DNA of 64,000 bases from Hyphomicrobiales bacterium (GTDB lineage: Bacteria; Pseudomonadota; Alphaproteobacteria; Rhizobiales; MH13), in contig JAEPOK010000001.1 in assembly GCA_017642935.1 (NCBI GenBank), positions 1,719,192 through 1,783,191 of the forward strand, given 5' to 3'. Within the stretch, counting starts at the first letter, position 1. Each line of letters opens with the position of its first letter. Position numbers and translations under genes: made by a program. The notes beneath the pieces were generated by a model, which saw only the letters and a program-made list of their open reading frames with translations, had not been told where the DNA came from and did not search any database. Below, in pieces: positions 1,152-43,522 of the stretch.

Positions 1152-1166
1152 GTTCGTGATGCGCAC
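1152..1166 (-). promoter_or_regulatory. IclR-type operator box G (dctQM promoter region)
   Basis: Read on the plus strand the box is GTTCGTGATGCGCAC, the reverse complement of the consensus GTGCGNNATNNGAAC seen at six other intergenic regions. A degenerate partner with a CGC core starts 19 bases further on (1171-1185), keeping the spacing of the better pairs. It lies about 80 bases upstream of dctQ. Confidence 0.6.
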
Positions 1167-1190
1167 AACAGCAGATTTTACGCTCCTGGC

Positions 1191-2090
1191 TTACCCTTGG
1201 GTACGTACCCATTCAGCCAGTTCAGCGTGGGTGGGAAACCAAACCGAGCCTCGGGCTTTCGCGTGATCGATCAAGGCATCTAACAGCCAGATGCGCGAAC
1301 GATAGCCAATGACGAATGGGTGGAAGACAAGCTGGCAGACGCCGCCTTCTTCAAAGGCCATGTCGAATTCACGCTTGAAGATGTCGAGTACATCGGTCGG
1401 CGCCGTCCAGGGTCGTGTCGCAGGCTCGCGATTGAAGAGGAGGTAGACCGCATCATCGCGTACCCAATCGACGGGAATCTCGACTAAGCCGGTCTCGCGA
1501 CCCTCGGCCAGCAGCTCATAGCAGTTGTCATCGGCCATCATGCTGCTGTCGTAGGCAAAGCCTTCTTCGGCGACCAACTCGATGGTGTGAGCACTCAAAT
1601 CCCAATTGGCGGCGCGGTGTCCGACCGGCGTCGTTCCAGTCAGCTTTTCCAGCGTATCGCGAGATCGCAGCAAAAGCTCGCGTTCGGTCTCTTGATCCAG
1701 CTTGGACGTGTTTTCGTGAATCCAGCCATGAACGCCTATTTCGTGCCCGGCCTCAACGATCGGACCGAGGGCGCTCGGCTCAATCAACGCCGAAACGGCC
1801 GGGACAAAGAAACTCGCCTTGACGTCGTGCTTGTCCAGAACCTTCAGGATGCGCGGCACGCCGCGGCGGCGGCCGAACTCTCCCCAAGCAAGGCGTCCGA
1901 CAGCGGCCTTGCCCATCCCAAGCTCAAACGTTTCATGGTCGCAATCAAAAGACAGTGCCATCGCGCATTGCGCCCCACCCGGCCACGTTTTTGGCGCAAG
2001 CTCGCGGCCGGCGCGCACGCGATTAACAAGGCTACGCCAAGTTTCTTCGTCGGTCGCCCAGGGCTGGTCGCCGTTCATGCGTGGGTCCAT
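1191..2090 (-). CDS. Polysaccharide deacetylase family hydrolase (PuuE/HpPgdA-like)
   Basis: The 299-residue product has the NodB-type carbohydrate esterase fold: an early FDCDHET motif carrying the metal-binding aspartate, the metal-ligand segment EIGVHGWIHE, and a later HRAANWD segment. Relatives include peptidoglycan deacetylase HpPgdA and the cofactor-free allantoinase PuuE, so the substrate may be a sugar amide or a ureide-like cyclic amide. I chose the ATG at 2090; an in-frame TTG at 2105 would add five residues, and neither has a clear ribosome site. It is divergent from the GST gene across an IclR-type operator pair. Family assignment is firm; the reaction is not known. Confidence 0.82.
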   Translation of the reverse strand: MDPRMNGDQPWATDEETWRSLVNRVRAGRELAPKTWPGGAQCAMALSFDCDHETFELGMGKAAVGRLAWGEFGRRRGVPRILKVLDKHDVKASFFVPAVSALIEPSALGPIVEAGHEIGVHGWIHENTSKLDQETERELLLRSRDTLEKLTGTTPVGHRAANWDLSAHTIELVAEEGFAYDSSMMADDNCYELLAEGRETGLVEIPVDWVRDDAVYLLFNREPATRPWTAPTDVLDIFKREFDMAFEEGGVCQLVFHPFVIGYRSRIWLLDALIDHAKARGSVWFPTHAELAEWVRTQG

Positions 2091-2152
2091 AAAAAATGAG
2101 TCCAATGCGATTGGTGTTGAACGAGGGGCGCTTGCCAGCCAAGCTTACGCAT

Positions 2153-2186
2153 GTTCAACATGCGCACAAGTGTTACAATATCGCAC
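2153..2186 (+). promoter_or_regulatory. Paired IclR-type operator boxes F
   Basis: Two 15-bp boxes, GTTCAACATGCGCAC (2153-2167) and GTTACAATATCGCAC (2172-2186), lie exactly 19 bases apart in the divergent promoter between the deacetylase and GST genes. Their reverse complements fit the window-wide consensus GTGCGNNATNNGAAC (GTAAC in one). The second box ends 13 bases before the GST start codon, so binding could block that gene directly. Confidence 0.75.
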
Positions 2187-2199
2187 GACCAAGGACGCC

Positions 2200-2892
2200 A
2201 TGATCAAGTTCTTCTACAATTCCGCGCCGAACCCAATGAAAGTGGCGCTTTTCCTGGAAGAAAGTGGTCTGGAATATGAACCGATCCCCATCGATTCCAA
2301 ACGAGGTCAGCAGCACAGCAACACCTACAAACAGATCAATCCGAATGCGAAGGTTCCCGCCATCATTGACGGCGATGTACCGGTGTTCGACAGCAATGCG
2401 ATCCTGCTCTATCTGGCGGAAAAGACAGGACAGTTTCTGCCACCGGACGAGCCAGGTGCACGCGGCGCTCTGCTGTCGTGGTTGATGTTCATCGCCTCGG
2501 GCGTTGGGCCCTACTCCGGCCAAGCTGTACACTTCCGCAAGTTTGCGCCAGAGCAAATTCCCTACGCCATCAAGCGCTATGATTTCGAGGCGCGGCGGCA
2601 CTGGCAGATCATCGATGATCGCCTTATCAAAGGCCGCTACATGATGGGCGAAACCTACACGATCCTTGACATGGCGGTCTGGGGTTGGGGCGACCGGCTG
2701 ACCTATATGCTGGCCGATGACAACATCATGGAAAAGTATCCCAATCTTGATCGCTTGATGAAGGAAGTGGACGCGCGACCAGCCGGACAGCGAGCGAAAG
2801 CCTTGCCAACTCAGCACGCCTTCAAGCAGGAGTTCGACGAAGAGGCGATGAGGCACATGTATCCGCAGATTTTCGCGCCTGATCCCGTCTGA
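2200..2892 (+). CDS. Glutathione S-transferase family protein
   Basis: The 230-residue protein has an N-terminal thioredoxin fold (about residues 1-80) with the cis-proline motif at KVPAI (Pro53) and the glutathione-contacting DSNAILLYL at 64-72, then an all-helical C-terminal domain. It resembles bacterial Nu/theta-type GSTs and YfcG/YghU relatives, which conjugate or reduce electrophiles or disulfides with glutathione in the cytosol. The frame stays open far upstream, but the ATG at 2200 is where GST homology begins, immediately after the operator pair. The SDR that follows starts 3 bases after its stop, so they form one operon. The true substrate cannot be read from the sequence. Confidence 0.88.
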   Translation: MIKFFYNSAPNPMKVALFLEESGLEYEPIPIDSKRGQQHSNTYKQINPNAKVPAIIDGDVPVFDSNAILLYLAEKTGQFLPPDEPGARGALLSWLMFIASGVGPYSGQAVHFRKFAPEQIPYAIKRYDFEARRHWQIIDDRLIKGRYMMGETYTILDMAVWGWGDRLTYMLADDNIMEKYPNLDRLMKEVDARPAGQRAKALPTQHAFKQEFDEEAMRHMYPQIFAPDPV

Positions 2893-2895
2893 TCT

Positions 2896-3687
2896 ATGCC
2901 AGGCTCCCATTTGCGCGACGGCCCGTGGACGGCCTTGATCACCGGGGCTGCATCAGGCATCGGCAAAGCTATCGCGCAGCGTTTCGCCGAGGATGGCGCC
3001 ACCGTCATCTGCGCGGACATCAACGCTGAAGGCGTAGAGGCTGTCGCATCAGACATCCAGTCGAGCGGTGGGAAAGCCCATGCCCTGCATGCCGACGTTG
3101 CCGATGAGAGCTCGGTGTCAGGCATGGTCCAGGCCACCATTCAAGCCACCGGCAGGATCGACGCGGTCGCGGCGAACGCCGGGTCTATGATCGAAGGCGG
3201 CATCCTGTCTCTGTCGCTGGATGATTGGGAGCGATCTTTGCGCCTCAATGCGACGGCAGCGTTTCTCACCGCTCGCGCAACGCTGCCCCATCTTGTCGCC
3301 AGCGACGACGGCGCACTGGTTTTTACCACATCGACGGTCGCACTCTCCGGCATGAAGGGCGTTGCCGGTTACTCAGCCGCCAAGGGCGCCGTTGCTGCCC
3401 TCACACGGCAATTGGCGGCCGATTTTGCCGATCAGGGCGTGCGCGTGAACGCCGTTGCACCGGGCGCGGTGCGAACACCCTTATCGGAGTCGCAGTTTCG
3501 CGCCAGGGCGCGCGATGATGCGCATCTGGCGGAACTGCTGGACCAGGTGATCCAGCGCTATCCCATTGGGCGCTGGGGTGAACCGGAAGAGATCGCGGCG
3601 CTAGTGGCCTTCCTTTCCAGCCCGGGTGGCCGCTGGATGACCGGGCAGATCATCCCAGTTGATGGTGGCCTGTTGGAGCTGCGCTGA
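2896..3687 (+). CDS. SDR family NAD(P)-dependent oxidoreductase
   Basis: This is a classical short-chain dehydrogenase of 263 residues. It has the nucleotide-binding TGAASGIG at about 16-23, an NAG-type motif (ANAG), a serine in the TSTVAL strand, the catalytic YSAAK, and a C-terminal GQIIPVDGG typical of 3-oxoacyl reductase-like members. It is joined to the GST gene with a 3-base gap. In such GST/SDR pairs the dehydrogenase may process an alcohol or ketone derived from the same substrate, but this is inference. All catalytic residues are present. Confidence 0.88.
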   Translation: MPGSHLRDGPWTALITGAASGIGKAIAQRFAEDGATVICADINAEGVEAVASDIQSSGGKAHALHADVADESSVSGMVQATIQATGRIDAVAANAGSMIEGGILSLSLDDWERSLRLNATAAFLTARATLPHLVASDDGALVFTTSTVALSGMKGVAGYSAAKGAVAALTRQLAADFADQGVRVNAVAPGAVRTPLSESQFRARARDDAHLAELLDQVIQRYPIGRWGEPEEIAALVAFLSSPGGRWMTGQIIPVDGGLLELR

Positions 3688-3727
3688 CCAGCAATCTGCC
3701 ACAGTTGATTTCCTCGCCGCTGCCCTG

Positions 3728-3741
3728 TTGCGTAAGATCAA
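3728..3741 (+). promoter_or_regulatory. FixK/FNR-type box upstream of the universal stress protein gene
   Basis: TTGCGTAAGATCAA fits the FixK/FNR form TTG(A/C)-N6-TCAA; on the other strand it reads TTGATCTTACGCAA. Its centre is 62 bases before the ATG of the stress gene, so an activator bound at -41.5 would put the transcript start near 3776, just before the ribosome site at 3782-3788. A FixK-like regulator is encoded at 12212-12892. Confidence 0.65.
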
Positions 3742-3796
3742 TGGGAAATCCTGGTGCTGGGCCATCATCCGTTCCGGCTGCAAAGGAGATGTCGCG

Positions 3797-4651: not shown

Positions 4652-4677
4652 CCTGCGCTGACGCCCTGTGATCTGAC

Positions 4678-6435: not shown

Positions 6436-6439
6436 CGGG

Positions 6440-25337: not shown

Positions 25338-26075
25338 CTAGTGCCGCAAGATTTTTCCAAAGAAATCGCGAGCACGCTCAGCCTTCGGTGCATCGAACAG
25401 GATCGCTGGCGGCCCTTCTTCGACCACCTCACCCTCGTCCATGAAGATCACCTTATCAGCGACCTCACGAATGAAGGCCATCTCGTGGCTAACCAGGATC
25501 ATCGTGATGCCTTCGGCGGCGAGACGGCGAATGGTGTCGAGCACTTCGTTGACCAGCTCGGGATCGAGTGCCGAGGTTACTTCGTCGAGCAGGAGAATTT
25601 GGGGCTTCAACGCCAACGCACGTGCAATCGCAACGCGCTGTTGTTGACCGCCCGATAGTTGATCGGGAAAGGCCGCGAGCTTGTCAGCGAGACCCACCAT
25701 GGCGAGCAGTTTTTCTGCTTCCAGCCGCACCTCGGCAATCGGTCGCTTTTTGATCTTGGCCGGTGCGACCGTCACGTTTTGCAGGACGCTCATGTTCTGA
25801 AACAGATTGTACTGCTGGAAGACTATAGCCATCTGATCGCGTGCTTCGCGCACGGAGGCCGCACTTTTGTAGTTGATGGTCTTGTCGTGGATCGTGACGC
25901 TGCCGGACGTGACCGGTGTCAGCCCAACAAGCGTGCGCAGCACCGTCGATTTGCCTGACCCAGATGGACCGACAAGGCCGATCACCTCCCCCTTTTCCAT
26001 GGAGAAGGAAACGCCCTTGAGAACCTCAATCGCGCCGTAGCGGGCGCGCAGATCGTTGACCGCGACGTGTGGCAA
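25338..26075 (-). CDS. Polar amino-acid ABC transporter ATP-binding protein (GlnQ-like)
   Basis: The 245-residue ATPase has Walker A GPSGSGKST, signature LSGGQQQRVAIARAL and Walker B ILLLDEVTSALD, as in GlnQ/HisP of polar amino-acid importers. The start is a TTG at 26075, preceded at seven bases by GGAG; no closer ATG keeps the first beta strand (HVAVNDLRARYG). It overlaps the permease gene by 50 bases. It is the last gene of a four-gene importer and converges on the SDR gene. Confidence 0.9.
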   Translation of the reverse strand: MPHVAVNDLRARYGAIEVLKGVSFSMEKGEVIGLVGPSGSGKSTVLRTLVGLTPVTSGSVTIHDKTINYKSAASVREARDQMAIVFQQYNLFQNMSVLQNVTVAPAKIKKRPIAEVRLEAEKLLAMVGLADKLAAFPDQLSGGQQQRVAIARALALKPQILLLDEVTSALDPELVNEVLDTIRRLAAEGITMILVSHEMAFIREVADKVIFMDEGEVVEEGPPAILFDAPKAERARDFFGKILRH

Positions 26076-26739
26076 GGCGTTTCTCCAGATACTGGCCCAG
26101 CATGCTGAGCGGGAAGGACATAAGGAAATAGCAAAAGGCGATGGTTCCAAACACCAACAGGGCCGAGAAGCCCTGATTGTTCAGCTCCTTGCCGCGAAAA
26201 GTGAGCTCAAAAACCCCGATCTGGCTGACGAGCGCAGTGTCTTTGATGAACGAGACGGCAAAGGCGATTGCTGGTGGGATGATGACCGGCCATGCCTGCG
26301 GAAGCACGACGGTTAAGAGCGTGCGCAGCCTCCCAAAATTCATTGCCGTTGCCGCTTCGACCTGTGTTTGCGCCACCGATTCAATGCCGCCGCGAATGAT
26401 GTCGGCAGTGTAGGCTACCGCGTAGATGCAGATTGCGATGACAGCGATGGTGAACAAGGAGGCATCGGTCGTGATCGTCTGGATGAAGAAGAGCACCAGA
26501 TAGATCACCACGATAAAGGGAATGCGGCGGAAAATCTCCACATAGGCGATGCAAATCGCGCGCAAGGGCAGCGCCCACAGTCCCGGGGTCTGGCGCAGAT
26601 AGACCAGGACAAAAGCCAGCCCAAATCCGATCAGACACCCCATGGCCGTCATGGCCAGCGTCAAACCGGCCGATTGGGCGAGAAGCACCATATTGTCGAG
26701 CGTAAAAAAGCGCGGGATCTGTTCGATGATCCGTTCCAT
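26026..26739 (-). CDS. Polar amino-acid ABC transporter permease
   Basis: A 237-residue HisM-type permease with about five membrane segments and the EAA-loop region EAATAMNFGRLRTLLTVVLPQA. The start is the ATG at 26739, 17 bases after the upstream permease stop. Its 3' end overlaps the ATPase gene by 50 bases, implying coupled translation. With its partner it makes the membrane channel for the amino acid or opine-like compound captured by the binding protein at 27542-28351. Confidence 0.88.
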   Translation of the reverse strand: MERIIEQIPRFFTLDNMVLLAQSAGLTLAMTAMGCLIGFGLAFVLVYLRQTPGLWALPLRAICIAYVEIFRRIPFIVVIYLVLFFIQTITTDASLFTIAVIAICIYAVAYTADIIRGGIESVAQTQVEAATAMNFGRLRTLLTVVLPQAWPVIIPPAIAFAVSFIKDTALVSQIGVFELTFRGKELNNQGFSALLVFGTIAFCYFLMSFPLSMLGQYLEKRLATRRGQRSARPLRRD

Positions 26740-26755
26740 CAGCGGCGATCCATCC

Positions 26756-27433
26756 TCAAAAAATCCTCGCCTTGACGCGGAATGCCCAACGACCCAGCAA
26801 TGCAAGCCCGATGGACGCGATGAACGTCAGCACGACGTACATGACGGCGACGATCGAGAAATATTCCAGCCAGCGATAGTTGACGGTCGATAGGTTGATC
26901 GCCTGACCGGTCAGCTCGTCGACGCCGATCAGCGCGCCGATGGAGGTGCCCATCACCAGGACAACGATGAAAAAGTTGGCGAGCGCTGGATACACCGACT
27001 TGGCGATGTGTGGGACGATGATGTAGCGGATTTGCTGGACCAGCGAGAAGCCGAGCGTCTGGCCCGCTTCCAATTCGGTTCGTCGTACGGACAAAAACCC
27101 GGCTCGCAGGATCATCGTCAGGTAGGCCCCGGCATTGAGGATCAAGCCGATCAGCACGCAAGCTTCGTTTGACCAGCGGATGCCCACTTCTGGCAGCCCA
27201 AAATAGAGAAAGTAGATTTGGATCAGCGCCGGCGTGTTGGTGATGAAAACGACATAGCCATCGACCAGAAGCCGCAAAGGCTTGGCGCCAAAGGTGTTAA
27301 TTGCCGCTCCGACCAACCCGATGACGGCGCCGCCACCGAAAGCCACAACGCCGAGTTGGAAGGTCAGCCAAGCGCCCGCCATGAGCGCATCAAACTGGCC
27401 CCAAACGACGCCGTATTGGAACGTGTAGTTCAT
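26756..27433 (-). CDS. Polar amino-acid ABC transporter permease
   Basis: The 225-residue permease begins at ATG 27433 and has the His/Glu/Gln/Arg/opine permease signature: a first helix in MAGAWLTFQLGVVAFGGGAV and EAA loop ELEAGQTLGFSLVQQIRYIIVPH. It pairs with the permease downstream. The 108-base gap to the binding-protein gene holds a weak hairpin. The HisM/GlnP subfamily includes octopine and nopaline importers, which fits the opine-oxidase-like genes in the same region. Confidence 0.88.
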   Translation of the reverse strand: MNYTFQYGVVWGQFDALMAGAWLTFQLGVVAFGGGAVIGLVGAAINTFGAKPLRLLVDGYVVFITNTPALIQIYFLYFGLPEVGIRWSNEACVLIGLILNAGAYLTMILRAGFLSVRRTELEAGQTLGFSLVQQIRYIIVPHIAKSVYPALANFFIVVLVMGTSIGALIGVDELTGQAINLSTVNYRWLEYFSIVAVMYVVLTFIASIGLALLGRWAFRVKARIF

Positions 27434-27485
27434 GGCGAACCGGCGACCCTATATTCTACCCGGCACTGCACCCGGCCCTGCCGCT

Positions 27486-27530
27486 GACGCTGAAATCAGC
27501 AAGACGAATGGCAAGACCGGGGGCAGCGTC
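27486..27530 (-). other. Possible intercistronic stem after the amino-acid-binding protein gene
   Basis: GACGCTG and CAGCGTC are perfect complements separated by 31 bases, and a short nested palindrome GCTGAAATCAGC overlaps one arm. It lies between the binding-protein stop and the first permease start. It is weaker than the hairpins at 20308 and 44915 but in the same relative place. Confidence 0.35.
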
Positions 27531-27541
27531 GGGAAGACGGA

Positions 27542-28351
27542 TTAGAAGTAGGGATTGGGCGTGATATCACGCAGCATCGGCGAGCCGTAGTGCGCTTCCC
27601 ACCGTTCGTTGACGAAGCCCGAGGAATGCAGACCGTAGAGCAGGATGTTCAGCACTTCGGTCAGATTATCGTTGCCCTGTGCAACGCCGATTGCGCAGTA
27701 AGCCACGAAGATCGGGTTTTCGACCACGCGCCAATCGACATCGGGATAGTTTTCAGTAAAGGCCATGAAGAAGTCGATGTTTTCGACAATGGCATCAGCG
27801 CGTCCCTGCGCTACCAAACGAACCGTGTCGGCCAAGGTGTCGACAAGCTCCAGCTCGACATTGGGCATGTTCTCTTCAATCCAACCCACAGTCCAGTTGC
27901 CGCGCATATTGGCGAGCGTCACGCCTTCCTGGTTGAATTCCTGCCAGCTGTTGCCGTCGATCTCGGACGTGGCGAGCACAGCCAGCACTTCGGTGTGCAA
28001 CGGCACCGTATAATCGATCAGCATCGCCCGTTCGGCATTGCGTGTCAGGGCGCCAAGCGACACATCGATGCGATCGGAAACCAGGAACGGCACGCGCTGC
28101 GGTGTCTCGGTTGGAACCCACTCGACTTCAACGCCAAGCCCTTCGGCCAAAGCATTGGCAACGTCGATGTCAAAGCCTTCCCAATCGCCCGCGTCATTGC
28201 GCGTGCTCATGTTCGGGAAATTTGGATTGATGCCGACGCGCAGCACGCCTTCCGACAAGATTTCATCCAGGGTGCGCGCTTCGGCGACTGCCAACGGCGC
28301 GCTCAAAATGGCAAGGCCGGATAGGGCCGCAACGAATGTGCGTTTGAGCAT
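27542..28351 (-). CDS. Polar amino-acid ABC transporter substrate-binding protein
   Basis: The 269-residue protein has a signal peptide (cleaved after about residue 25 at AEA) and a type II periplasmic fold of the family 3 kind: LRVGINPNFPNMS, DWEGFDIDVANALAEGLGV and the IDVSLGALTRNAERA strand. Such proteins bind glutamine, arginine, ectoine or opines. It is first in the leftward importer operon and faces a promoter with a pair of IclR-type boxes about 70 bases upstream. The ligand cannot be read off. Confidence 0.88.
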   Translation of the reverse strand: MLKRTFVAALSGLAILSAPLAVAEARTLDEILSEGVLRVGINPNFPNMSTRNDAGDWEGFDIDVANALAEGLGVEVEWVPTETPQRVPFLVSDRIDVSLGALTRNAERAMLIDYTVPLHTEVLAVLATSEIDGNSWQEFNQEGVTLANMRGNWTVGWIEENMPNVELELVDTLADTVRLVAQGRADAIVENIDFFMAFTENYPDVDWRVVENPIFVAYCAIGVAQGNDNLTEVLNILLYGLHSSGFVNERWEAHYGSPMLRDITPNPYF

Positions 28352-28422: not shown

Positions 28423-28456
28423 GTGCGCATTACGAACTTTCGTGCGGATTATGGCG
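28423..28456 (-). promoter_or_regulatory. Paired IclR-type operator boxes E1/E2 (amino-acid ABC promoter)
   Basis: GTGCGCATTACGAAC (28423-28437) fits the consensus well; 19 bases on, GTGCGGATTATGGCG (28442-28456) matches in its first half and AT core. The pair lies in the 296-base divergent region 28352-28647 between the importer operon and the AcoX-like gene. The middle of that region (28457-28580) shows no other clear signal. Confidence 0.65.
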
Positions 28457-28580
28457 CATTGTCGCACCTTGCTGTCAATGGCGCATCCGTACGTGCAAAC
28501 CGCTATGCGCGCATTCTGTACGTTCAAAGGATAAACGGTCGGATTCCAATCGATGGCGACCCCTCCCCTTTCGAACAACT

Positions 28581-28595
28581 GTGCGTATATTGAAC
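28581..28595 (+). promoter_or_regulatory. IclR-type operator box E3 (AcoX-like gene promoter)
   Basis: GTGCGTATATTGAAC fits the consensus fully. It ends 52 bases before the ATG of the AcoX-like gene. A partial copy ending in GAAC lies 19 bases upstream (28562-28576), keeping the pair spacing. Confidence 0.7.
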
Positions 28596-29790: not shown

Positions 29791-29824
29791 GTGCGTTATG
29801 TGAACTTTTGTGCACTATTTGCAC
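29791..29824 (+). promoter_or_regulatory. Paired IclR-type operator boxes A (gcvPA promoter)
   Basis: GTGCGTTATGTGAAC (29791-29805) and GTGCACTATTTGCAC (29810-29824) lie exactly 19 bases apart. The first is identical over all 15 bases to the box at 38672. The pair ends 46 bases before the gcvPA start codon. Confidence 0.78.
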
Positions 29825-32851: not shown

Positions 32852-32872
32852 GCCGTGCCACGAACCGCTCCA

Positions 32873-34012: not shown

Positions 34013-34053
34013 CAGTGCAGCATTCCTTTCCGCTTCGATCCAATGAGGACAGC

Positions 34054-35004
34054 ATGAGCAAGAGTTTTTCCGGCAGTCACACCGTCACCGTCACACCGTT
34101 CACGGAAGGTGGGCGTGCCATCGACTTCCCTGCTTGGGAGCGGTTTCTCGATTGGCAGATGGCGTGCGGCGTACCCGGCGTCATCATCCTGGGCACGACA
34201 GGCGAGTTTCTCACCATGACCGACGAGGAGCGCGAGCAGTTCGTCGAACACACGGTCAAATACATCAACGGCCGCATCACCGTTTGGGTCGGCACAATGA
34301 ACGCCTACACGCCGAACGCCGTACGCTATTCCAAACAGGCCGAAGACCTTGGCGCCGACGGGCTGATGATCATTCCGCCTTACTATTACACGCCGACTGA
34401 CGACGAGATTTTCAACTATTACCAGGCGATCTGCGACGGCTGCGATCTGCCAATCATGCTCTATAACAACCCCTTCACCTCGAACGTTGATATGAGCGCT
34501 AAGCTGGTGGGAAGGCTCACCAAGAGCTTCAATCAGATCCGCTACATCAAAGAGGCAAGCCAGCGCATCGAACGCATCCACGACATCATCCTCGAAAGCG
34601 ACGGGCTGATGAATGTCTGGGCCGGGCAACGGGTTTTGGAAAGCTACAAGATGGGGGCCAAGGGCTATGTGAATCCCTATGGCAACTACATTCCGCGTGC
34701 CTCTGTGAAGTTCGTTGAGTGGGCAGAACAAGGCCGCTGGGACGATGTGCAAGCCGTCCAAACGGTGATTTCGAAGTTCGACATGATCATCACCGAAGGG
34801 CATCCGCTCTATGGCCACCAATGCTATTCCAAGGCTCTCGCTGCCGCCGCAGGCTACCCAGTCGGCGATGTGCGTGCGCCGATCACGACGTTCGAAAGCC
34901 TCGGTGAGGAAGGCCGCGATCGTGTGGCTCGTATGGTGCCGCTGATGGAAGAGTTGGACCGGATTGTCGATGGGATCGAAGGTCGCCAGGTCGCTGCGGA
35001 ATAG
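34054..35004 (+). CDS. Dihydrodipicolinate synthase (DapA/NAL) family lyase
   Basis: The 316-residue TIM-barrel enzyme has the family motif GTTGEFLTMTDEER, tyrosine in MLYNNP and Schiff-base Lys166 in YIKEAS. The family covers synthase, aldolase, dehydratase and deaminase reactions, including the pyrroline-hydroxy-carboxylate deaminase of D-hydroxyproline breakdown. The ATG at 34054 follows GAGGAC; the frame opens earlier at a GTG with no support. Neighbouring opine-oxidase-like flavoproteins and an aldehyde dehydrogenase would fit that pathway, but no epimerase is present here. Confidence 0.87.
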   Translation: MSKSFSGSHTVTVTPFTEGGRAIDFPAWERFLDWQMACGVPGVIILGTTGEFLTMTDEEREQFVEHTVKYINGRITVWVGTMNAYTPNAVRYSKQAEDLGADGLMIIPPYYYTPTDDEIFNYYQAICDGCDLPIMLYNNPFTSNVDMSAKLVGRLTKSFNQIRYIKEASQRIERIHDIILESDGLMNVWAGQRVLESYKMGAKGYVNPYGNYIPRASVKFVEWAEQGRWDDVQAVQTVISKFDMIITEGHPLYGHQCYSKALAAAAGYPVGDVRAPITTFESLGEEGRDRVARMVPLMEELDRIVDGIEGRQVAAE

Positions 35005-35019: not shown

Positions 35020-35781
35020 TTAACGAATGTAGGCCGCGCCGTTCACGTCGATGGTGGCGCCCGTCAGATGGCGGGCGCGGCCAGTGGCCAAAAAGACTGC
35101 CGTCTCTGCGATGTCTTCCGGCGGCACCCACTCGCCCATGGGCAAGGTCGCCGTTACCGCCTCTTCACCACCAACTTTGGCGGCAGTCTCGACCGACATG
35201 CGTGTGCGCACGACACCTGGGGCGATGACATAGGCAAGGATGCCTTGGGCCGCATAGTTACGCGCAACCGTTTTGGTCGCGGCGGAGATCGCCGCCTTCG
35301 ACGCGGCATAAGCAATGGCGCCGGGATTTGAGGTGCCGCGCGTCGTTACCCAACTGCCGATTCCGATCACCGAGCCTTTGGTTTCTGTCTCAAGCCAGTT
35401 GCGCACAGCATGGCGCATTAGACGGGCGGGGGCATGCACATTGACGGTCATGGCTTCAGTCCAGACCGCATCCCATTCCTCAATGGGATCGGAAATACCG
35501 CCGCTCTGACGCATGATGCCGGCATTGTTGATCAGGACGTCGACACGTCCCCCAGCTAGCTCCCACGCTTCGGCCCAGAAACGATCGACTGCTTTCAAAT
35601 CCTTGAAATCGGCTTGAACCAGGTGGGCTCTGCCCTCTGCCGCTGCTTCCACGCCTGCTCGATCGCCACCATAATGGGCGATTACGGTCGCACCGGCATC
35701 AAGCATTGCTTTGGCTGTGGCAGCGCCGATGCCCTTTGAAGCACCGGTCACGATAATGGTCTTGCCTGCTAGCTCACTCAT
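35020..35781 (-). CDS. SDR family oxidoreductase
   Basis: The 253-residue dehydrogenase shows IIVTGASKGIG, INNAG, the serine in GIGSWVT and YAASK, and ends in GATIDVNGAAYIR. All catalytic residues are present. I start at the ATG at 35781 that overlaps the flavoprotein stop as ATGA; the open frame extends upstream only as a shadow of that gene. It is second in a two-gene leftward operon with the OYE-type reductase, and its promoter region holds a pair of IclR-type boxes. Confidence 0.87.
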   Translation of the reverse strand: MSELAGKTIIVTGASKGIGAATAKAMLDAGATVIAHYGGDRAGVEAAAEGRAHLVQADFKDLKAVDRFWAEAWELAGGRVDVLINNAGIMRQSGGISDPIEEWDAVWTEAMTVNVHAPARLMRHAVRNWLETETKGSVIGIGSWVTTRGTSNPGAIAYAASKAAISAATKTVARNYAAQGILAYVIAPGVVRTRMSVETAAKVGGEEAVTATLPMGEWVPPEDIAETAVFLATGRARHLTGATIDVNGAAYIR

Positions 35782-36884
35782 CGTTCGCTCCGTTTGACAA
35801 AGGGGGTTGCCGCAAGCGCCGGATTGCAGCGCGCATAGGGCGCTGGCAACGCTATTTCGGCGCCCAGCGCAACCGCAGCTTTCCATGTCCAACGCGGGTC
35901 CCAAAGCATGCCGCGCGCCAGGGCGACCAGGTCAGCCTGACCGGTGGCGATGATCGTTTCGGCCTGCACGGGATCGGTGATCTGACCAACAGCCATGACG
36001 GGCATTCCGGCCTCGCAACGGATGGTTTCGGCAAATCCGACTTGGTAGCCTGGCCCAGTGGTGATTTTCTGGCGCTGATCAAGACCGCCGGAGGTGACGT
36101 CGATCATGTCACAGCCAGCCTCTCTTAGGGCTTGGCTGAACGCAAGCGTTCCGGCCATATCCCAGCCGCCATCGATCCAATCGATCGCCGATAGCCGCAC
36201 GATCACCGGCTTTTCTTTCGGGAAGGCTTCGCGCACGGCTTTGAAGACATCAAGCGGGTAGCGCATGCGATTTTCCAGCGAACCGCCATACTGATCTTGG
36301 CGGTGGTTGGTGATCGGCGACAGAAACTGGTGCAGCAGATAGCCATGCGCTGCGTGCAACTCGATCAAATCAAAACCGGCGCGCTCAGCGCGCTTGGCAG
36401 AATCAACGAAGGCGTTACGCACGCGCTCCAGCGCTCCATCATCCATCGCGCGCGGCTCGGGCCAGCCAGGAAGATAAGGAATCGCCGAAGGAGCGTCGGT
36501 CACCCAGGCGCCCTCGCCTTCGATCAAGCCGCCCCCTTCCCAGGGCGCCACCGTGCTTCCCTTACGCCCAGCGTGGCTGAGTTGAATGCCCACACGCATA
36601 TCGCCGACCGACTTCATGAACGTGATAATACTGGCGAAGGCTTCCTCACACGCATCATCGTACAGGCCTGTACAGCCCGGCGTGATGCGGCCATCTGGCT
36701 CAACGCCTGTAGCTTCAACGAAAATGGTGCCCGGACCGGACATCGCGAACTGGCCCAAATGGGCCAAATGCCACTGTCCCGGCACACCGTTGATCGCCGC
36801 GTATTGGCACATGGGAGAGACGACAACGCGATTGGGCACTGTGAGCCCACCCAGTTGGAGGGGCGTGAAAAGCTGAGCGGCCAT
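35778..36884 (-). CDS. NADH:flavin oxidoreductase / old yellow enzyme family (YqjM-like)
   Basis: The 368-residue FMN protein has the OYE barrel with NRVVVSPMCQYAA near the N-terminus, active-site HxxH in LIELHAAHGYLLHQFLSP and the phosphate-binding C-terminal region AVGQITDPVQAETIIATGQADLVALARG. Such enzymes reduce C=C bonds of unsaturated carbonyls or demethylate amines (relatives include trimethylamine and dimethylglycine-type enzymes). The leftward operon starts here, just behind the box pair at 36931-36964. A role in reducing an enone or imine in the IclR-linked pathway is inferred. Confidence 0.88.
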   Translation of the reverse strand: MAAQLFTPLQLGGLTVPNRVVVSPMCQYAAINGVPGQWHLAHLGQFAMSGPGTIFVEATGVEPDGRITPGCTGLYDDACEEAFASIITFMKSVGDMRVGIQLSHAGRKGSTVAPWEGGGLIEGEGAWVTDAPSAIPYLPGWPEPRAMDDGALERVRNAFVDSAKRAERAGFDLIELHAAHGYLLHQFLSPITNHRQDQYGGSLENRMRYPLDVFKAVREAFPKEKPVIVRLSAIDWIDGGWDMAGTLAFSQALREAGCDMIDVTSGGLDQRQKITTGPGYQVGFAETIRCEAGMPVMAVGQITDPVQAETIIATGQADLVALARGMLWDPRWTWKAAVALGAEIALPAPYARCNPALAATPFVKRSER

Positions 36885-36930: not shown

Positions 36931-36964
36931 GTGCGTTATAGTAACTTGTGTGCGCTATTTGAAC
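36931..36964. promoter_or_regulatory. Paired IclR-type operator boxes B (divergent promoter)
   Basis: GTGCGTTATAGTAAC (36931-36945) and GTGCGCTATTTGAAC (36950-36964) are 19 bases apart and fit the consensus closely. They lie between the OYE gene (starts 36884, leftward) and the isomerase gene (starts 37002, rightward), so one pair can serve both. Confidence 0.78.
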
Positions 36965-37001: not shown

Positions 37002-37841
37002 ATGTCCCCGCTCCGTGTTGCCGCCAGTACCTTTCCCTTCCTTTATTCACATGGCGGTTTGGATGCGCTCAAGCATCTGAAAACGCTCGGATATGACACT
37101 TATGAGTTGATGATCTTTCCGCCGCATTGCTGGCCGCGCGAACTGACGGTCGCCGACAAGCGCGACTACAAGGCTTGGCTTAATGGCGAGGGCGGTCATG
37201 TGAGCAGCTTCTGCTACCCGCTGCTCGACAACAATCCCAATGGCGTCGATCGTCTGATGCGTGGCTACACGCTGGATCGCTACAAAGAGGCGATCGATTT
37301 CGCGGCCGAGTTGGAGTGTCCCTATGTGGTCGCCATCCCAGGACCGGTGAACAGCCTGATCAACCCGCCCTACCAGTGGATGCTCGACTGGTTTGTTGAA
37401 GGTGTCAAAGAGCTGGTGGCCTATTCCAAGGGAACAGGCGTCGAGATCCTGTTGGAAAACGTGCCGTTCACGTTCTTGCCGACGGCCAAGGACATGGCCG
37501 ACACAGCCGCCCTGATCGGGCCGGAAGTCGGTGTGAACTTCGATGTCTGCAACAGCGCCTTCATCAAGGAAGACCCTGCCGATGCCATTCGTATGCTCGG
37601 CGGCCTTGTGAAAAACGTTCACATTTCCGATTCAGGCTATGACGATTTCAAGCACGAAAAACTAGGCACCGGTATTGTTGAACCTGGCCCTGCAGCGCAG
37701 GCGCTCAAGGACATCGGATACACCGGTGTTACTGTGTTGGAAATCATCACCGATGCTCTGGCCGAGGGTGCCGACCCCGACGGTGAAATCAAAGAAAGCC
37801 ACGATATCCTGACCGCCAACGGGTGGGCGGCCAGGGGATAG
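37002..37841 (+). CDS. Sugar phosphate isomerase/epimerase family TIM barrel (hydroxypyruvate isomerase-like)
   Basis: The 279-residue protein is an AP-endonuclease-2-type TIM barrel. It shows ILLENVPFTF with a metal-binding glutamate, NFDVCNSAF with an aspartate, NVHISDSGYDDF with histidine and aspartate, and a final glutamate in TVLEIITDA. Substrates in the family range from hydroxypyruvate and tagatose to inosose. It stands alone, converging on an SDR gene 4 bases away, under the IclR-type box pair. Its substrate is not evident. Confidence 0.83.
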   Translation: MSPLRVAASTFPFLYSHGGLDALKHLKTLGYDTYELMIFPPHCWPRELTVADKRDYKAWLNGEGGHVSSFCYPLLDNNPNGVDRLMRGYTLDRYKEAIDFAAELECPYVVAIPGPVNSLINPPYQWMLDWFVEGVKELVAYSKGTGVEILLENVPFTFLPTAKDMADTAALIGPEVGVNFDVCNSAFIKEDPADAIRMLGGLVKNVHISDSGYDDFKHEKLGTGIVEPGPAAQALKDIGYTGVTVLEIITDALAEGADPDGEIKESHDILTANGWAARG

Positions 37842-37845: not shown

Positions 37846-38604
37846 CTAAGCGAGGCCCGCTTCCACGGGTAGGATCACCCCTGTCATTCCTGCTGAGGCG
37901 TCCGACGCCAGGAAGTAGGCTGCGTTGGCCACATCCAGTTCTGTGGCAAGACAACCCAACGCCGATTCGCTTTCCAATGCTGCTAAGGCTTCGGCGGGCG
38001 ACGGCCCGCCAGCCCTATGCCGCGTCTCAACGCGTCCCATCAGCGCTTCGGTGGCAATTGGCCCCGGCGCCAGTCCATTGACCCGGATCTTGCGTGGTCC
38101 AAGATCAAGAGCAGCCGCGCGCACCACTCCGATGACGGCATGCTTGGAGGCTGTGTAGAGCACCTGTTTGGGGTGGGCCTTGTAGCCGTTGATGGAGGCC
38201 ATCGCGACAATGGACCCATGGCCGGACTGTTCCAGCGAGTCGGCAAACGCACCGATAGTCGCAGCGACGCCCCAGACATTGACCCGCATGACGCGATCCC
38301 ACTCGGCAAGATCAAGTTCGTCCAAGCCACGCCAAGGCGGGACCAGGCCAGCATTTGCGACCAGGATGTCCACTTTGCCAAGCCGCGCGGCCAGTGCCTT
38401 CAGTTGGGCATCGGCTGTGTCGTTGGCCAGATCGACGCCTTCTGCCTGCCACGCGTCAGGCAAGTCGGACAGTCTGTCGGGCAAATCAACGGCAACGATG
38501 GTGGCACCACCGGCCGCTAGCCGTTCTGCGATCGCACGCCCAAGGCCACTGACCGCACCAGTCACCACAGCCAGGCGCCCCTCAACGGAATGATTGTTTT
38601 CCAC
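37846..38604 (-). CDS. SDR family oxidoreductase
   Basis: The 252-residue protein has VVTGAVSGLGRAIAERLAAGG, VANAG and catalytic YTASK with serine in AMASINGY. I start at the GTG at 38604, preceded at eight bases by GGAGGG; the longer frame to 38667 has no family similarity and would run into the operator. It is divergent from the 3-hydroxyacyl-type dehydrogenase, sharing the box at 38672-38686. Activity is probably on a hydroxy or keto intermediate of the IclR-linked pathway. Confidence 0.86.
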   Translation of the reverse strand: MENNHSVEGRLAVVTGAVSGLGRAIAERLAAGGATIVAVDLPDRLSDLPDAWQAEGVDLANDTADAQLKALAARLGKVDILVANAGLVPPWRGLDELDLAEWDRVMRVNVWGVAATIGAFADSLEQSGHGSIVAMASINGYKAHPKQVLYTASKHAVIGVVRAAALDLGPRKIRVNGLAPGPIATEALMGRVETRHRAGGPSPAEALAALESESALGCLATELDVANAAYFLASDASAGMTGVILPVEAGLA

Positions 38605-38671
38605 GGCAAAACCCTCCAACACAGGGGCATCAAGTGATGACCCAATTCGTGATTGCCTCTCCCGCACACTT

Positions 38672-38686
38672 GTGCGTTATGTGAAC
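38672..38686. promoter_or_regulatory. IclR-type operator box C, two bases before a start codon
   Basis: GTGCGTTATGTGAAC is identical to box A1 at 29791. It ends two bases before the ATG of the 3-hydroxyacyl-type dehydrogenase and 68 bases upstream of the divergent SDR. A copy at 38653-38667 keeps the 19-base spacing but matches only in part (CGCAC end). Confidence 0.72.
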
Positions 38687-38688
38687 TC

Positions 38689-39633
38689 ATGCAAGACAAA
38701 TCGTTAGATTCTCCGAAGATCACCATCCTGGGCGCCGGGTCGATTGGCGTGTCGTTTGCCGCTTTTTTCTCCGATATCGGCGCGCATGTAAGCTTGATCG
38801 ACCCCGATGCAGAACGGCGTGTAGCAGCCTCTCAAGGGTTGGCAGACCAGAGAGAATCTATGCGTGAGGCTGGTCTCTTGCGCGGCGGTGCCGGTCCAGT
38901 GGACACCCTCGGAAACCTCGAAACGGCGCTCCCAAAAGCTGATCTTGTCATCGAGTGCGGGCCAGAAAACCTTGCAACGAAGCAAGAGATTTTCGCCGAT
39001 CTCCTAGCTAGGAGTGGGTCGGAAACAGTCTTGGCGACAGCCTCGTCGGCGATCACAATTTCAGAGATCCTGCCGAATCCATCCCAGCAAAAGCGATGTC
39101 TGGTCGCGCACCCGGTTAATCCGCCCGCAATCCTCCGCGTTATTGAGTTGGTGCCCGCGCCCGGCACTGACCAACAGGCAACAGCGAAGGCTGCCTCACT
39201 TTTCCAGTCAGCTGGGTTTGAGACCGTCCAACTCGGCCATGAGATTGAGGGGTTTGTGCTCAATCGCCTGCAAAGCGCTGTCCTGCGCGAGGCTTACCGG
39301 CTGGTCGATGAGGGCGTGACGGATGTCGCTGGAATCGAGACCATCATGAGGATGGGCCTTGGCCCACGATGGGCGCTATCGGGTCCGTTTGAAACGGCGG
39401 AGCTCAACACGCCGGGCGGCATCAAGGCGCATGCCGCGCGAATGGGGCCAGCTTACAAGCGCATTGGCGAAGCCCGCGGGGAAACGGTTGATTGGAACGA
39501 TGCTCTTATCTCCAAGGTCGATGCGCAAAGGCGCGAGGTTTTGTCGTTGGGCGAACTTGCCGGGCGGGCGACATGGCGTTCGCGCGCTGTCGCTCGTCTT
39601 GTTGCCGTGCGCGATCGGCTGATGCAGGACTAG
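38689..39633 (+). CDS. 3-hydroxyacyl-CoA dehydrogenase family NAD-dependent oxidoreductase
   Basis: The 314-residue protein has the Rossmann motif ITILGAGSIGVSFA, ECGPENLATKQEIF, and HPVNPPAILRVIEL containing the active-site histidine, then the helical C-terminal domain. This subgroup includes L-gulonate dehydrogenase/lambda-crystallin and L-carnitine dehydrogenase, which act on free hydroxy acids rather than CoA esters. There is no ribosome site before the ATG: the IclR-type box ends two bases upstream. Either translation is leaderless or it starts at the TTG at 38653, placing the box inside the gene. It leads the three-gene flavoprotein operon. Confidence 0.85.
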   Translation: MQDKSLDSPKITILGAGSIGVSFAAFFSDIGAHVSLIDPDAERRVAASQGLADQRESMREAGLLRGGAGPVDTLGNLETALPKADLVIECGPENLATKQEIFADLLARSGSETVLATASSAITISEILPNPSQQKRCLVAHPVNPPAILRVIELVPAPGTDQQATAKAASLFQSAGFETVQLGHEIEGFVLNRLQSAVLREAYRLVDEGVTDVAGIETIMRMGLGPRWALSGPFETAELNTPGGIKAHAARMGPAYKRIGEARGETVDWNDALISKVDAQRREVLSLGELAGRATWRSRAVARLVAVRDRLMQD

Positions 39634-39640
39634 CCGTGCA

Positions 39641-41350
39641 ATGACCGAGATCGTTTTTCAGTACCAAGGGCGTGAGATCGCCGCGCGCGAGGGAGAAAGC
39701 CTCGCAGCGGCCCTAACGCAGGCGGGGGTCCGCGCGTTTCGAGAGACTGCCAAGGGTGCTGAACGCGGCATTTTCTGCGGGATGGGCGTCTGCCAAGATT
39801 GCCTGGTTGATGTGGACGGCACGCCGAACCGTCGCGCCTGCATGACGCCGGTCGAAAACGGCATGTCCGTCACGCGGCAGGTCGCGCTGCCAGAATTTGG
39901 CCACGAGGTGAAAACGCCGGATGGTGAGGCACTGCACCTTTCACCGAATGTCCTAGTTGTTGGTGGTGGCGCAGCGGGTCTTTCGGCAGCCATCACCGCC
40001 GCCGAAGCCGGCGCGGAGGTGGTGCTGCTCGACGAGCGCAAGGTGGCTGGCGGGCAATATTACAAGCAGGCCGCCAACGGCACGATCCTGGACCAACAAC
40101 AGGATGATGGCGCGCAGCTTGTCGCGCGTGCCAAGGCATCGGGCGCGAGATTGATATCCGGCGTTGAACTTTGGGGCGCGTTCGACGGGCTGCTTTTTCT
40201 CGGCCATCGAGAGGGTGCGCCACTTATCGCGAAGCCAAAAACCGCGATCATCGCAACCGGCGCGTACGAACGGCCGGTGACGGTGCCTGGATGGACGCTT
40301 CCCGGTGTGATGACAACCGGAGCGGCGCAAACCTTGTGGCGTAGTTATCAGACCTTGCCTGGAAAACGTATCGCTGTGTGCGGCTCGGGACCACTCAATG
40401 TTCAAGTCGCACTAGAGCTGGCGAAAGGCGGCGCTGAGATCGTTTATCTCGCCGAGCGCGCTCCGGCTGCCATCACCAAACCGTTGACCGCTCTGGCTAT
40501 GGCGGCGGCAGACCCAAAGCTCACCTTGCAGGGCCTCAACATGCTGGCCGGTCTGCGCCAGCACGGCATCAAGGTGCGGAACAACAGCGAACTCCGTAAA
40601 GTTGTTCAAGACGGAGATGGCTTGGCCGCGACGTTCACCGCTTCTGGAGGCGAAGAAACGGTGCATGTCGATGTGCTTTGCATGAATGCTGGTTTTGAAC
40701 CACAGAACGAGATCCTTCGCCTCCTTGGCGCGTCGATGCAGTATGACGCAGCCATGGGCCATCTGCGCTGCGAAAAAAACACACGCATGGAGACAAGCGT
40801 ATCCGGCCTCTACGCGATCGGGGACTGCACCGGGCTTGGCGGTGCGCCTGCCGCCCGCATCGAAGGTGAGATCGCAGGGGCTAATGCCGCTGCCGCAACC
40901 GGCCATGGTGAGCCAGGCGACTTGTCCGGCAAGCGCCGCACGCTGGCCAAGCATCGGAAATTCCAAACCAAGCTTTGGACGCTTTACGACATCACGCAGC
41001 GCGATACAGCGCCACTACCGGACGAGACCACAATCTGCCGCTGCGAGGAACTGACCCTTGGCGATGTTCGCACTGGATTGGCGACAACGCCCGGTCATGT
41101 CGGTTCGCTGAAGCGCGCAACACGGGTTGGCATGGGACGCTGCCAGGGACGCTATTGCGGGCCAATCGCTGCGCGCATGGTGTCTGACGCGACTGGCAAG
41201 GCCATTGAAGATTTGAGTTTTTTCGCGCCGCGTGTGCCAATCAAACCCGTCGCCATTTCAGCCATCTTGGCTGCTGAAGAGGCCATCGGCGAGGTGCAAG
41301 GCGAAAGCTTGGTCGAGGCCGTCATCGAGGCGCCCGATGACAGCGGCTGA
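39641..41350 (+). CDS. Fused 2Fe-2S/FAD oxidoreductase (HcnA-HcnB or opine oxidase alpha-like)
   Basis: The 569-residue protein joins two usually separate subunits. Residues 1-95 are a 2Fe-2S ferredoxin domain with Cys46, Cys51, Cys54 and Cys67, like HcnA. Then comes an FAD/NAD domain beginning VLVVGGGAAGLSAA near 105, and a C-terminal BFD-type iron-sulfur domain with CRCEE near 466 and GRCQGRYCG near 500, as in HcnB/OoxA. It is the electron-transfer partner of HcnC/OoxB-type oxidases. Its stop overlaps the following HcnC-like gene by 14 bases. D-hydroxyproline dehydrogenase and opine oxidase have the same composition. Confidence 0.9.
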   Translation: MTEIVFQYQGREIAAREGESLAAALTQAGVRAFRETAKGAERGIFCGMGVCQDCLVDVDGTPNRRACMTPVENGMSVTRQVALPEFGHEVKTPDGEALHLSPNVLVVGGGAAGLSAAITAAEAGAEVVLLDERKVAGGQYYKQAANGTILDQQQDDGAQLVARAKASGARLISGVELWGAFDGLLFLGHREGAPLIAKPKTAIIATGAYERPVTVPGWTLPGVMTTGAAQTLWRSYQTLPGKRIAVCGSGPLNVQVALELAKGGAEIVYLAERAPAAITKPLTALAMAAADPKLTLQGLNMLAGLRQHGIKVRNNSELRKVVQDGDGLAATFTASGGEETVHVDVLCMNAGFEPQNEILRLLGASMQYDAAMGHLRCEKNTRMETSVSGLYAIGDCTGLGGAPAARIEGEIAGANAAAATGHGEPGDLSGKRRTLAKHRKFQTKLWTLYDITQRDTAPLPDETTICRCEELTLGDVRTGLATTPGHVGSLKRATRVGMGRCQGRYCGPIAARMVSDATGKAIEDLSFFAPRVPIKPVAISAILAAEEAIGEVQGESLVEAVIEAPDDSG

Positions 41351-42464
41351 CACGCTCGTCATTGGCGGCGGCGTAACCGGCACCGTCGCAGCGATTGCCT
41401 TGGCCGAACAAGGCGCGCGCGTCACGATCCTCGATGCTGCAACCAATGCCGGTTCAGACAGCAATGCCGGATCGCTGCACGTGCAAATGCAAAGCCGTTT
41501 TATGCGCCTCTATCCCGATCAGGTGGCCAACGTTGAAGCCTCCCTGCCCTTTTATCGTGAAGCAGCCGACGTCTGGGCACAACTTGACCAAGATCTTGGC
41601 GGCCTCGAGTTGGTGCGCCAAGGCGGGTTGATGTTGGCCGAAAGCGCCGACCAATTGGCGTTCTTGGAAACCAAAGCGAAACGGGAGGCGTCCAAGGGTC
41701 TCAAGGTCGAGATTCTTGACCGCACCGCCCTCGACAAGGTGGCGCCCTGGCTTGGTCCGCAGATTGTCGGCGCGGAACTGTGCAAGGACGAGGGCAAGCT
41801 CAACCCGTTGATAGCCAACGCGAAATTAAAGGCGTGGTCGGCGACGCTTGGCGTTGAACGCCGCACCGTGCGCGTTGAGCGATTGGACCAGGGGCCGGGC
41901 GACATATCGGCGGTCACGTCCGACGGAATTTTTGGCGCAGACCAAGTCATCATCGCCGCGGCGTGGGGATCGGGCGATCTGGTTGCCCCCTTTGGGATCA
42001 CGATCCCGACCAAGGCTGAGCCGCTGCACATGAACATCACGGAATCCGGCGCGCCAGCAATCCACCATCTGGTGCAGCATGCAGAGCGGTCAATCACGCT
42101 CAAACAGTTCGGCTCGGGGCAAATCGTGATTGGTGGCGGTTGGCCGGCAACGGGTCGCGGCGCCAACCATCCGCCTGCGGTGGCATCATCATCATTGATG
42201 GGCAACGTGGCTTTGGCCGCCAAGCTCGTGCCCAGGATCGCCGGTCTGCGGGTCATCCGCACCTGGGCCGGCATGAACACCACGATCGATGGCGCCTCGG
42301 TGATCGGTCGTCTGCCGCAGACCGACCGCATCATCATGGCGATACCCGGCGATGCCGGCTACACGCTTGGACCGCTGGTTGGGCAGGCGGCGGCCGCTTT
42401 TGCGCTTGGCGAAAAACCCGACACCGATGTCGAGCGTTTTTCTCCGCATCGCTTTGCCGCTTAG
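41337..42464 (+). CDS. FAD-dependent amine oxidoreductase (HcnC/OoxB-like)
   Basis: The 375-residue flavoprotein begins TLVIGGGVTGTVAAIALAEQG and has the subgroup segment SNAGSLHVQMQ, followed by GGLMLAES and the C-terminal IGGGWPATG and WAGMNT blocks. It is a paralogue of the protein at 32873-34012. Start is the ATG at 41337, inside the end of the preceding gene, implying a fixed complex with the HcnAB-like fusion. The complex should oxidise a secondary amine or amino acid with electrons passing through FAD and 2Fe-2S. Its 3' end overlaps the convergent IclR gene by four bases. Confidence 0.87.
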   Translation: MTAADTLVIGGGVTGTVAAIALAEQGARVTILDAATNAGSDSNAGSLHVQMQSRFMRLYPDQVANVEASLPFYREAADVWAQLDQDLGGLELVRQGGLMLAESADQLAFLETKAKREASKGLKVEILDRTALDKVAPWLGPQIVGAELCKDEGKLNPLIANAKLKAWSATLGVERRTVRVERLDQGPGDISAVTSDGIFGADQVIIAAAWGSGDLVAPFGITIPTKAEPLHMNITESGAPAIHHLVQHAERSITLKQFGSGQIVIGGGWPATGRGANHPPAVASSSLMGNVALAAKLVPRIAGLRVIRTWAGMNTTIDGASVIGRLPQTDRIIMAIPGDAGYTLGPLVGQAAAAFALGEKPDTDVERFSPHRFAA

Positions 42465-43354
42465 CGTCGCAATGCCTGGCTGATCTTGCTGACGGTGTCC
42501 TGCAGCTTGGGAAGGATGAAATCGACCATCTCGGTCGTTGTCATGCGCAAAGTCGGCACGCCGACATTGATCGCCCCGGCCATCACACCGGATGAAAGAT
42601 AGAGTGGCACGGCGATCGACATGAGACCGGTCTCGAGTTCTTGATCGACAAGCGACCAGCCTTTGTCGCGCACATCCTCCAAGACCTTTCGAAACTCGGC
42701 GCGGTCGGTCACCGTACGATCGGTCATACGCGTCAGCGGTATGCTTTGCAGCATGCCCAACCACTGATCTTCTGGAAGCCCAGCCAAGAGAACGCGCCCC
42801 GTCGCCGTTGCGTGTGCGGGAAAACGTCGTCCAACCGTAATGCCGACACTGATCACTCGATGAAACTGCGTGCCGCTGACATAAACGACGTCGAAATTGT
42901 CCAAGATCGCCGCAGAAACACTCTCGCGGGTCTCCTCCGAAAGATGTTCGATAAAGGGCCGCGCAATGTCCCATGTGCCTTTGGAGGACAGCACGGAAAA
43001 TCCGAGCTCGAGCACCTGCGGCGTTAGATCAAACAGTCTACCATCGGCCACCGCATAGCCCTCTCGCACCAATGTCAGGAGGATTCGGCGGGCGCCAGCG
43101 CGGGTGTTTCCTGTCTCGGCGGCGACCTCGGAGAGCGTCATTTTTCGTCGGGTCCGATTGAAAGCGCGCAGAACATCTAGCCCGCGCGCCAGCGAACTGA
43201 CGTAATCACGTGAATTGGGCGCACCGTTACCGGTCTCGTCCAAGTCATCCGGCGCTGCCGTCATCAATCCAGCAGGCGTATCGGAAGCCTTCGATTTGGC
43301 CTTTTCTGCAGGCATGCTTCTCCCGGCCGCCTTTTCTTTTGGCTTGTTCGCCAT
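42461..43354 (-). CDS. IclR family transcriptional regulator (PcaR/PobR-like)
   Basis: The 297-residue regulator has a lysine/alanine-rich N-terminal extension (about 1-48), a winged helix (about 50-112, with MTLSEVAAETGNTRAGARRILLTLV) and the IclR effector domain (about 128-295). The SSLARGLDVLRAF start of the winged helix is typical of the PcaR/PcaU/PobR branch. It is divergent from the sugar ABC operon, with a box pair at 43489-43522 between them. I infer that it binds the 15-bp boxes found at seven intergenic regions in this window. The ligand is unknown. Confidence 0.92.
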   Translation of the reverse strand: MANKPKEKAAGRSMPAEKAKSKASDTPAGLMTAAPDDLDETGNGAPNSRDYVSSLARGLDVLRAFNRTRRKMTLSEVAAETGNTRAGARRILLTLVREGYAVADGRLFDLTPQVLELGFSVLSSKGTWDIARPFIEHLSEETRESVSAAILDNFDVVYVSGTQFHRVISVGITVGRRFPAHATATGRVLLAGLPEDQWLGMLQSIPLTRMTDRTVTDRAEFRKVLEDVRDKGWSLVDQELETGLMSIAVPLYLSSGVMAGAINVGVPTLRMTTTEMVDFILPKLQDTVSKISQALRR

Positions 43355-43488
43355 GGCGCCTTCCTTTTCATCCTTCCTTCTCAGCCCACAAAGAAAGGCT
43401 GATTCCGCACAAGAGTCTGCCTAGCACACCGCATTTGCATCCGGCAGCCAACGAATTGCGGAAAAGCACTTGCGTAGATCGTCGGATC

Positions 43489-43522
43489 GGTGAATTATCG
43501 CACAAGCGTTCGCTATGTGAAC
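43489..43522. promoter_or_regulatory. Paired IclR-type operator boxes D (IclR gene and sugar ABC operon)
   Basis: GTTCGCTATGTGAAC (43508-43522) fits the consensus; 19 bases earlier GGTGAATTATCGCAC (43489-43503) matches the reverse form in its CGCAC half and AT core. The sequence around the main box (TATGTGAACTTTT) also matches box A. It lies between the IclR gene and the ABC binding-protein gene and may carry autoregulation. Confidence 0.7.

Follow-up and report, generated by a model that had tools for sequence, protein, structure and literature searches.

Candidate operators of a PcaR-subfamily IclR regulator at dispersed promoters of a Hyphomicrobiales genome

The 64,000-nucleotide stretch analyzed here (the window, G000:C1:1719192-1783191 of a 3.74-Mb genome) contains eight operators based on a 15-bp box of the form GTGCG...GAAC, the second half of which often reads TGAAC instead of CGAAC. 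The boxes occur far above chance and are conserved. Very probably they are the operators of the adjacent PcaR-subfamily IclR protein, which, judged from sequence, would bind them to control about eleven transcription units together with, probably, a further locus on contig C3. The operators, listed without strand, are as follows.

1133..1166: O1, upstream of the TRAP DctQ gene; box 1152-1166 has a degenerate partner, GTGCGCAAGACAAAT at 1133, that is conserved in L104 and L110
2153..2186: O2, a pair of full boxes at a 19-bp step, flanked by the divergent polysaccharide deacetylase gene and GST-SDR genes
28423..28446: O3, box 28423-28437 and half-site GTGCG 28442-28446, upstream of the amino acid ABC operon
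28572..28595: O4, half-site CGAAC 28572-28576 and box 28581-28595, in front of the gene for the AcoX-like protein (NAD-kinase fold)
29791..29824: O5, two boxes at a 19-bp step, upstream of the gcvPA-gcvPB-like genes
36931..36964: O6, a pair of boxes at a 19-bp step, flanked by the divergent OYE-SDR and TIM-barrel genes
38663..38686: O7, half-site CGCAC 38663-38667 and box 38672-38686, flanked by the divergent SDR and 3HCDH-flavoprotein genes
43499..43522: O8, half-site CGCAC 43499-43503 and box 43508-43522, flanked by iclR and the sugar-type ABC operon

Three of these operators (2153, 29791, and 36931) contain full-box pairs at a 19-bp step, four (28423, 28581, 38672, and 43508) combine a single full box with a CGMAC or GTKCG half-site at a distance of exactly 4 bp, and the 1133/1152 operator contains a box with a degenerate partner. 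In seven of the eight, a gap of exactly 4 bp therefore separates a 15-bp box from a second box or a half-site, giving the 19-bp register, and this register is found at every operator in the window, in degenerate form at 1133/1152. All of the boxes listed in the original prediction were present where it had placed them, and its 19-bp step was upheld, but its 28442 and 43489 entries and the stretch 5' of 38672 prove to be half-sites rather than 15-bp boxes. Conversely, the 28581 and 1152 boxes, which it had taken to be single, have partners: the half-site at 28572-28576, again in the 19-bp register, and the degenerate box at 1133, which is kept in two relatives. A whole-genome search for a box with a half-site at a gap of 4 bp, allowing one mismatch, returned all but one of the eight operators in the window and, outside it, C3:234417 and two places on contig C2 with one mismatch each; the reversed control also gave 2 matches, placing the C2 matches at chance level. 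On this result, pairing of the boxes is general rather than frequent. The operators are an unusually clear sequence-level example of the IclR-family architecture of a box, 4 bp, and a half-site.

Pattern searches covered the whole genome. Three of the four exact occurrences of GTGCGNNATNNGAAC lie within the window, which is 1.7% of the genome, and the fourth is inside a gene outside the window. The tandem pattern, with up to 3 mismatches, likewise had three of its four genome-wide matches in the window, and its reversed control had none in the genome. A matrix was built from 11 window boxes and used to scan the window, 20 stretches of 20 kb across the genome (a 400-kb sample that served as the background), and the flanks. 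It found 11 window sites above 16 bits, all of them intergenic when the GST gene is started at ATG 2200, and no such sites in the 400-kb sample or in 40 kb of flanks. The 2172 box was called coding by the automatic gene call owing to an early GST start; ATG 2200 is the natural start. Near-consensus matches elsewhere in the genome were rejected as operators, nearly all of them being in coding sequence with the exception of C3:234417; among those fetched, only C3:234417 and a weak site scoring 14.0 bits are noncoding. The original prediction had named equal matches in coding regions across the genome as what would count against it, and the matrix scan of the 400-kb sample thus favors it.

There is next to no chance that the boxes are random matches or a repeated element with no regulatory role. 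A loose scan allowing two mismatches does give this reading something, with 30 matches in the window against 25 +/- 5 expected, so that the window as a whole is not enriched. Enrichment is visible, however, for the exact pattern, for pairs, and by intergenic position, where it is strong and the controls are zero, and at orthologous promoters the sites have been kept where the flanking sequence has diverged. The pairs in relatives, the genome matrix scan, and the intergenic footprints already refute it.

Because the matrix was trained on window sites, its scores in the window are circular, and the relatives provide the independent test. These were 29 orthologous loci, each with a gene for a protein closely related to the IclR regulator; the genera represented include Roseibium, Roseicyclus, Oceanibium, Loktanella, Microvirga, Jannaschia, Hoeflea, and Roseobacter. 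With the window-only matrix, they yielded 43 pairs at step 19, none at steps 15 to 18, and 1 at step 20, and 68 sites above 16 bits compared with a mean of 0.75 (maximum, 2) for column-permuted matrices. A half-site at gap 4 accompanies 51 of the 82 strong boxes in relatives, whereas the other gaps from 0 to 12 gave 1 or 0. In about 30 genomes with an iclR ortholog, the same genes are preceded by the same boxes, although in a few relatives some of these promoters have only a single box or weaker ones. When three intergenic regions were aligned without the matrix, the operators were the best-conserved stretch, with 1.46 versus 0.83, 1.21 versus 0.75, and 1.52 versus 0.66 bits per column inside and outside the boxes, respectively. 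In each of the three regions, the most conserved 34-bp segment coincided with the operator start or lay no more than 9 bp from it, and O6 was the most conserved such segment among 22 sequences. Unlike most other steps, step 33 was also seen in relatives, with 8 box pairs (L092-L120).

The gene beside O8 encodes the putative box binder.

42461..43354, minus strand: iclR, PcaR/PcaU/PobR subfamily (PF01614/PF09339, TIGR02431), with its start at ATG 43354 or 43264

The protein scores 291.8 bits against TIGR02431, above the curated cutoff of 284.75, and carries PF09339 and PF01614. Among the four TIGR02431 matches in the genome, it alone exceeds the cutoff, the other three scoring 105 to 142 bits. 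Its PDB relatives include Pseudomonas putida PcaR (8eju), and the alignment to P. putida PcaR spans most of the protein, including the arginine-rich recognition region. In the nearest relative with the regulator (G002), the IclR protein is 89% identical. Across the order, the tandem pattern was found in 17 of 199 genomes, and a PcaR-subfamily gene is present in 15 of those 17 compared with 69 of the 199 overall (Fisher p=3e-6 on raw counts over the 199 genomes, with phylogeny ignored); in several genomes of the order, the pair lies within 1 to 3 kb of the PcaR-subfamily gene.

It is very unlikely that another IclR-family paralog of this genome, rather than the adjacent protein, is the main binder of the boxes. 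Three other IclR-family genes do match the subfamily model, if weakly, and the half-site type is common to many IclR proteins, according to PMC8222616. Against the paralogs are their scores of at most 142 bits compared with 292 for the adjacent protein, the synteny between boxes and PcaR-type gene across about 30 genomes, and the way in which pairs across the order track PcaR-subfamily genes. The adjacent protein as binder agrees with the IclR/PcaR-type reading of the original prediction, which is supported by the subfamily score, the conservation of the boxes with orthologs, and the match to published half-sites.

Those published half-sites, of PcaR and of group-1 IclR proteins (GTNCG...CGNAC), match the window boxes, whose inverted halves fit the group-1 motif GTNCG-N5-6-CGNAC given in PMC8222616, with GTNCG and CGNAC 5 to 6 bp apart. 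The same paper describes tandem sites at 18 to 22 nt and three-box sites for many IclR-family orthologous groups (Suvorova and Gelfand 2021). The window operators, with a second site centered in that range or an added half-site, resemble these and the three-box operators of PcaU, PobR, and HmgR in having a 15-bp palindrome and a half-site or second palindrome with centers 19 nt apart. The spacing that had been taken as a sign of tandem dimers is confirmed as a register, but it is a known property of IclR-family operators. The P. putida PcaR regulon (operator GTTCGATAATCGCAC) shares the subfamily TIGR02431 and the GTKCG...CGMAC half-sites in a 15-bp box; the box center differs, and the targets here are transporters and enzymes of amine or imino acid type, without protocatechuate or beta-ketoadipate genes. 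As no pca or pob genes were found among the annotated targets, the regulator is a member of the PcaR subfamily by its sequence but is not PcaR proper, the beta-ketoadipate regulator, by its regulon. No regulon combining GcvPAB, AcoX, OYE, a 3HCDH-flavoprotein, and several transporters turned up in the main text of PMC8222616. Since IclR half-sites and tandem and three-box sites have already been published, this is a well-supported new candidate regulon with an already-known type of operator.

The candidate target genes are given below.

529..1056, minus strand: TRAP transporter small subunit DctQ (PF04290)
1191..2090, minus strand: polysaccharide deacetylase family protein (PF01522)
2200..3687, plus strand: GST and SDR genes
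25338..28351, minus strand: polar amino acid ABC transporter operon; homologs with boxes lie inside the cluster in L084 and L085
28648..32851, plus strand: AcoX-like gene, then gcvPA and gcvPB homologs with their own operator
35020..36884, minus strand: OYE-family flavin oxidoreductase and SDR
37002..37841, plus strand: xylose isomerase-like TIM barrel protein
37846..38622, minus strand: SDR
38689..42464, plus strand: 3HCDH-like dehydrogenase, 2Fe-2S/FAD subunit, and DAO-family subunit
43549..53075, plus strand: UgpABCE-like ABC transporter, DHDPS-like gene, two SDRs, class III aminotransferase, and SSADH-like gene

The original prediction had tied these genes into a 42-kb regulon. Dispersed operators do lie in front of the listed genes, but the matrix scan found no intergenic boxes above 12 bits between about 4.7 and 27.4 kb, so the regulon is not one continuous 42-kb unit; some 23 kb in the middle has no intergenic box. 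On the box evidence, the sulfate permease, two-component, Crp-type, and ribose-type ABC genes of that interval (about 4.7 to 27.4 kb) are not members. The TRAP and deacetylase genes lie directly within the cluster in L104, L109, L110, and L111, and in L104, L109, and L110 the TRAP gene, box, and deacetylase gene are side by side. In two distant genomes of the order (G048 and G053), the IclR protein is 48% identical and gene order is rearranged, and boxes are retained before the amino acid ABC operon and the SDR/3HCDH and DHDPS-like genes, as well as before GcvPA in G048, which supports the amino acid ABC and GcvPAB genes as members.

The GcvPA and GcvPB homologs (29871-32851) exceed their NCBIfam cutoffs and stand next to the AcoX-like NAD-kinase-fold gene. 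GcvPB keeps the HKT lysine motif, and neither GcvH nor GcvT was seen among the genes annotated here. The open reading frame at 32855-34057 on the plus strand was rejected as a gene, having no family match on that strand; the minus-strand frame 32873-34012 encodes a glycine/sarcosine oxidase-like FAD protein that is conserved in relatives. A literature search found nothing relevant on a known pathway with this gene set. Its DAO-family and 2Fe-2S/FAD subunits, GcvPAB, aminotransferase, SSADH-like, and DHDPS-like members suggest a nitrogen-containing substrate.

The second locus (G000:C3:229000-243000; L035 and the start of L153) is probably a remote part of the regulon, judging from comparison with other clusters. 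Its 19-bp pair, C3:234417, separates an OYE gene from a peptide-type ABC operon, which is followed by an M24 (Xaa-Pro) peptidase gene; a GST gene is on the next stretch. The transporter and peptidase proteins are 65 to 82% identical to genes in the IclR cluster of Antarctobacter heliothermus and Roseicitreum antarcticum, and the OYE and GST proteins are 69% and 75% identical, respectively, to those of the Antarctobacter cluster. The box is the variant GTTCG...CGAAC, in which position 3 is T rather than G; a further IclR gene is found 23 kb from the pair. It is possible, though doubtful, that two regulons overlap here, the adjacent IclR protein serving the window operators and the other contig C3 IclR protein serving the C3 pair. 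That would agree with the variant position 3 and with the presence of an IclR gene near C3-type pairs in both genomes (about 6 kb away in G002, besides the one in G000). The IclR protein near the G002 pair, however, is only 32% identical to the C3 IclR protein of G000, so no single local IclR protein is conserved with the C3-type pair. The identities to genes of PcaR-type clusters also speak against a separate regulon, as does Roseicitreum, in which a box precedes the peptide ABC gene.

Computation shows the boxes with their register, conservation, and association with iclR; binding, tetramer formation, the sign of control, the ligand, and the substrate are what we infer beyond this. In the proposed explanation, in which the adjacent PcaR-subfamily protein controls both loci, operators would be built from GTKCG and CGMAC half-sites, with one IclR dimer on each 15-bp pseudo-palindrome. 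A second box, or a half-site across the 4-bp gap, would place a second dimer 19 bp away, about two helical turns, on the same face. With operators shared between divergent genes, a single regulator could switch about eleven transcription units for the uptake (TRAP, amino acid ABC, and sugar-type ABC) and breakdown of one compound, probably nitrogen containing. Box 1 of O6 overlaps a predicted -10, and the O7 box ends 2 bp before the likely 3HCDH start at ATG 38689. Because at least two operators thus overlap a likely promoter or start region, repression by occlusion of RNA polymerase, relieved by a pathway intermediate, appears the likelier mode. Activation, known for some PcaR promoters, where it depends on the position of the site (PMC12455658), is the less likely mode. 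The 3HCDH gene has no visible ribosome-binding site (38653-38700), which suggests a leaderless transcript with its -10 in the box.

The broader proposal, to which we give an even chance, is that one PcaR-subfamily regulator coordinates a multilocus pathway that is widespread in Rhodobacterales and Hyphomicrobiales and acts on an undescribed nitrogenous compound, with a standard set of operators in the 19-bp register that includes an unlinked locus. The pathway genes in this proposal are those for an amine dehydrogenase, GcvPAB-like and AcoX-like proteins, OYE, an M24 peptidase, and several alternative transporters. Through a well-defined operator, one regulator is linked, across about 30 alphaproteobacterial genomes, to some thirty genes with no previously assigned joint function. 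The operator-linked set would define an uncharacterized catabolic pathway, and the inducing compound would be a simple route to its substrate.

The cluster is also carried on a plasmid of Paracoccus aminophilus. Strong single boxes (about 17 bits), absent from the window, were seen inside the DHDPS-like coding region of several relatives (L101 at 18983, L105 at 11486, and L108 at 18927).
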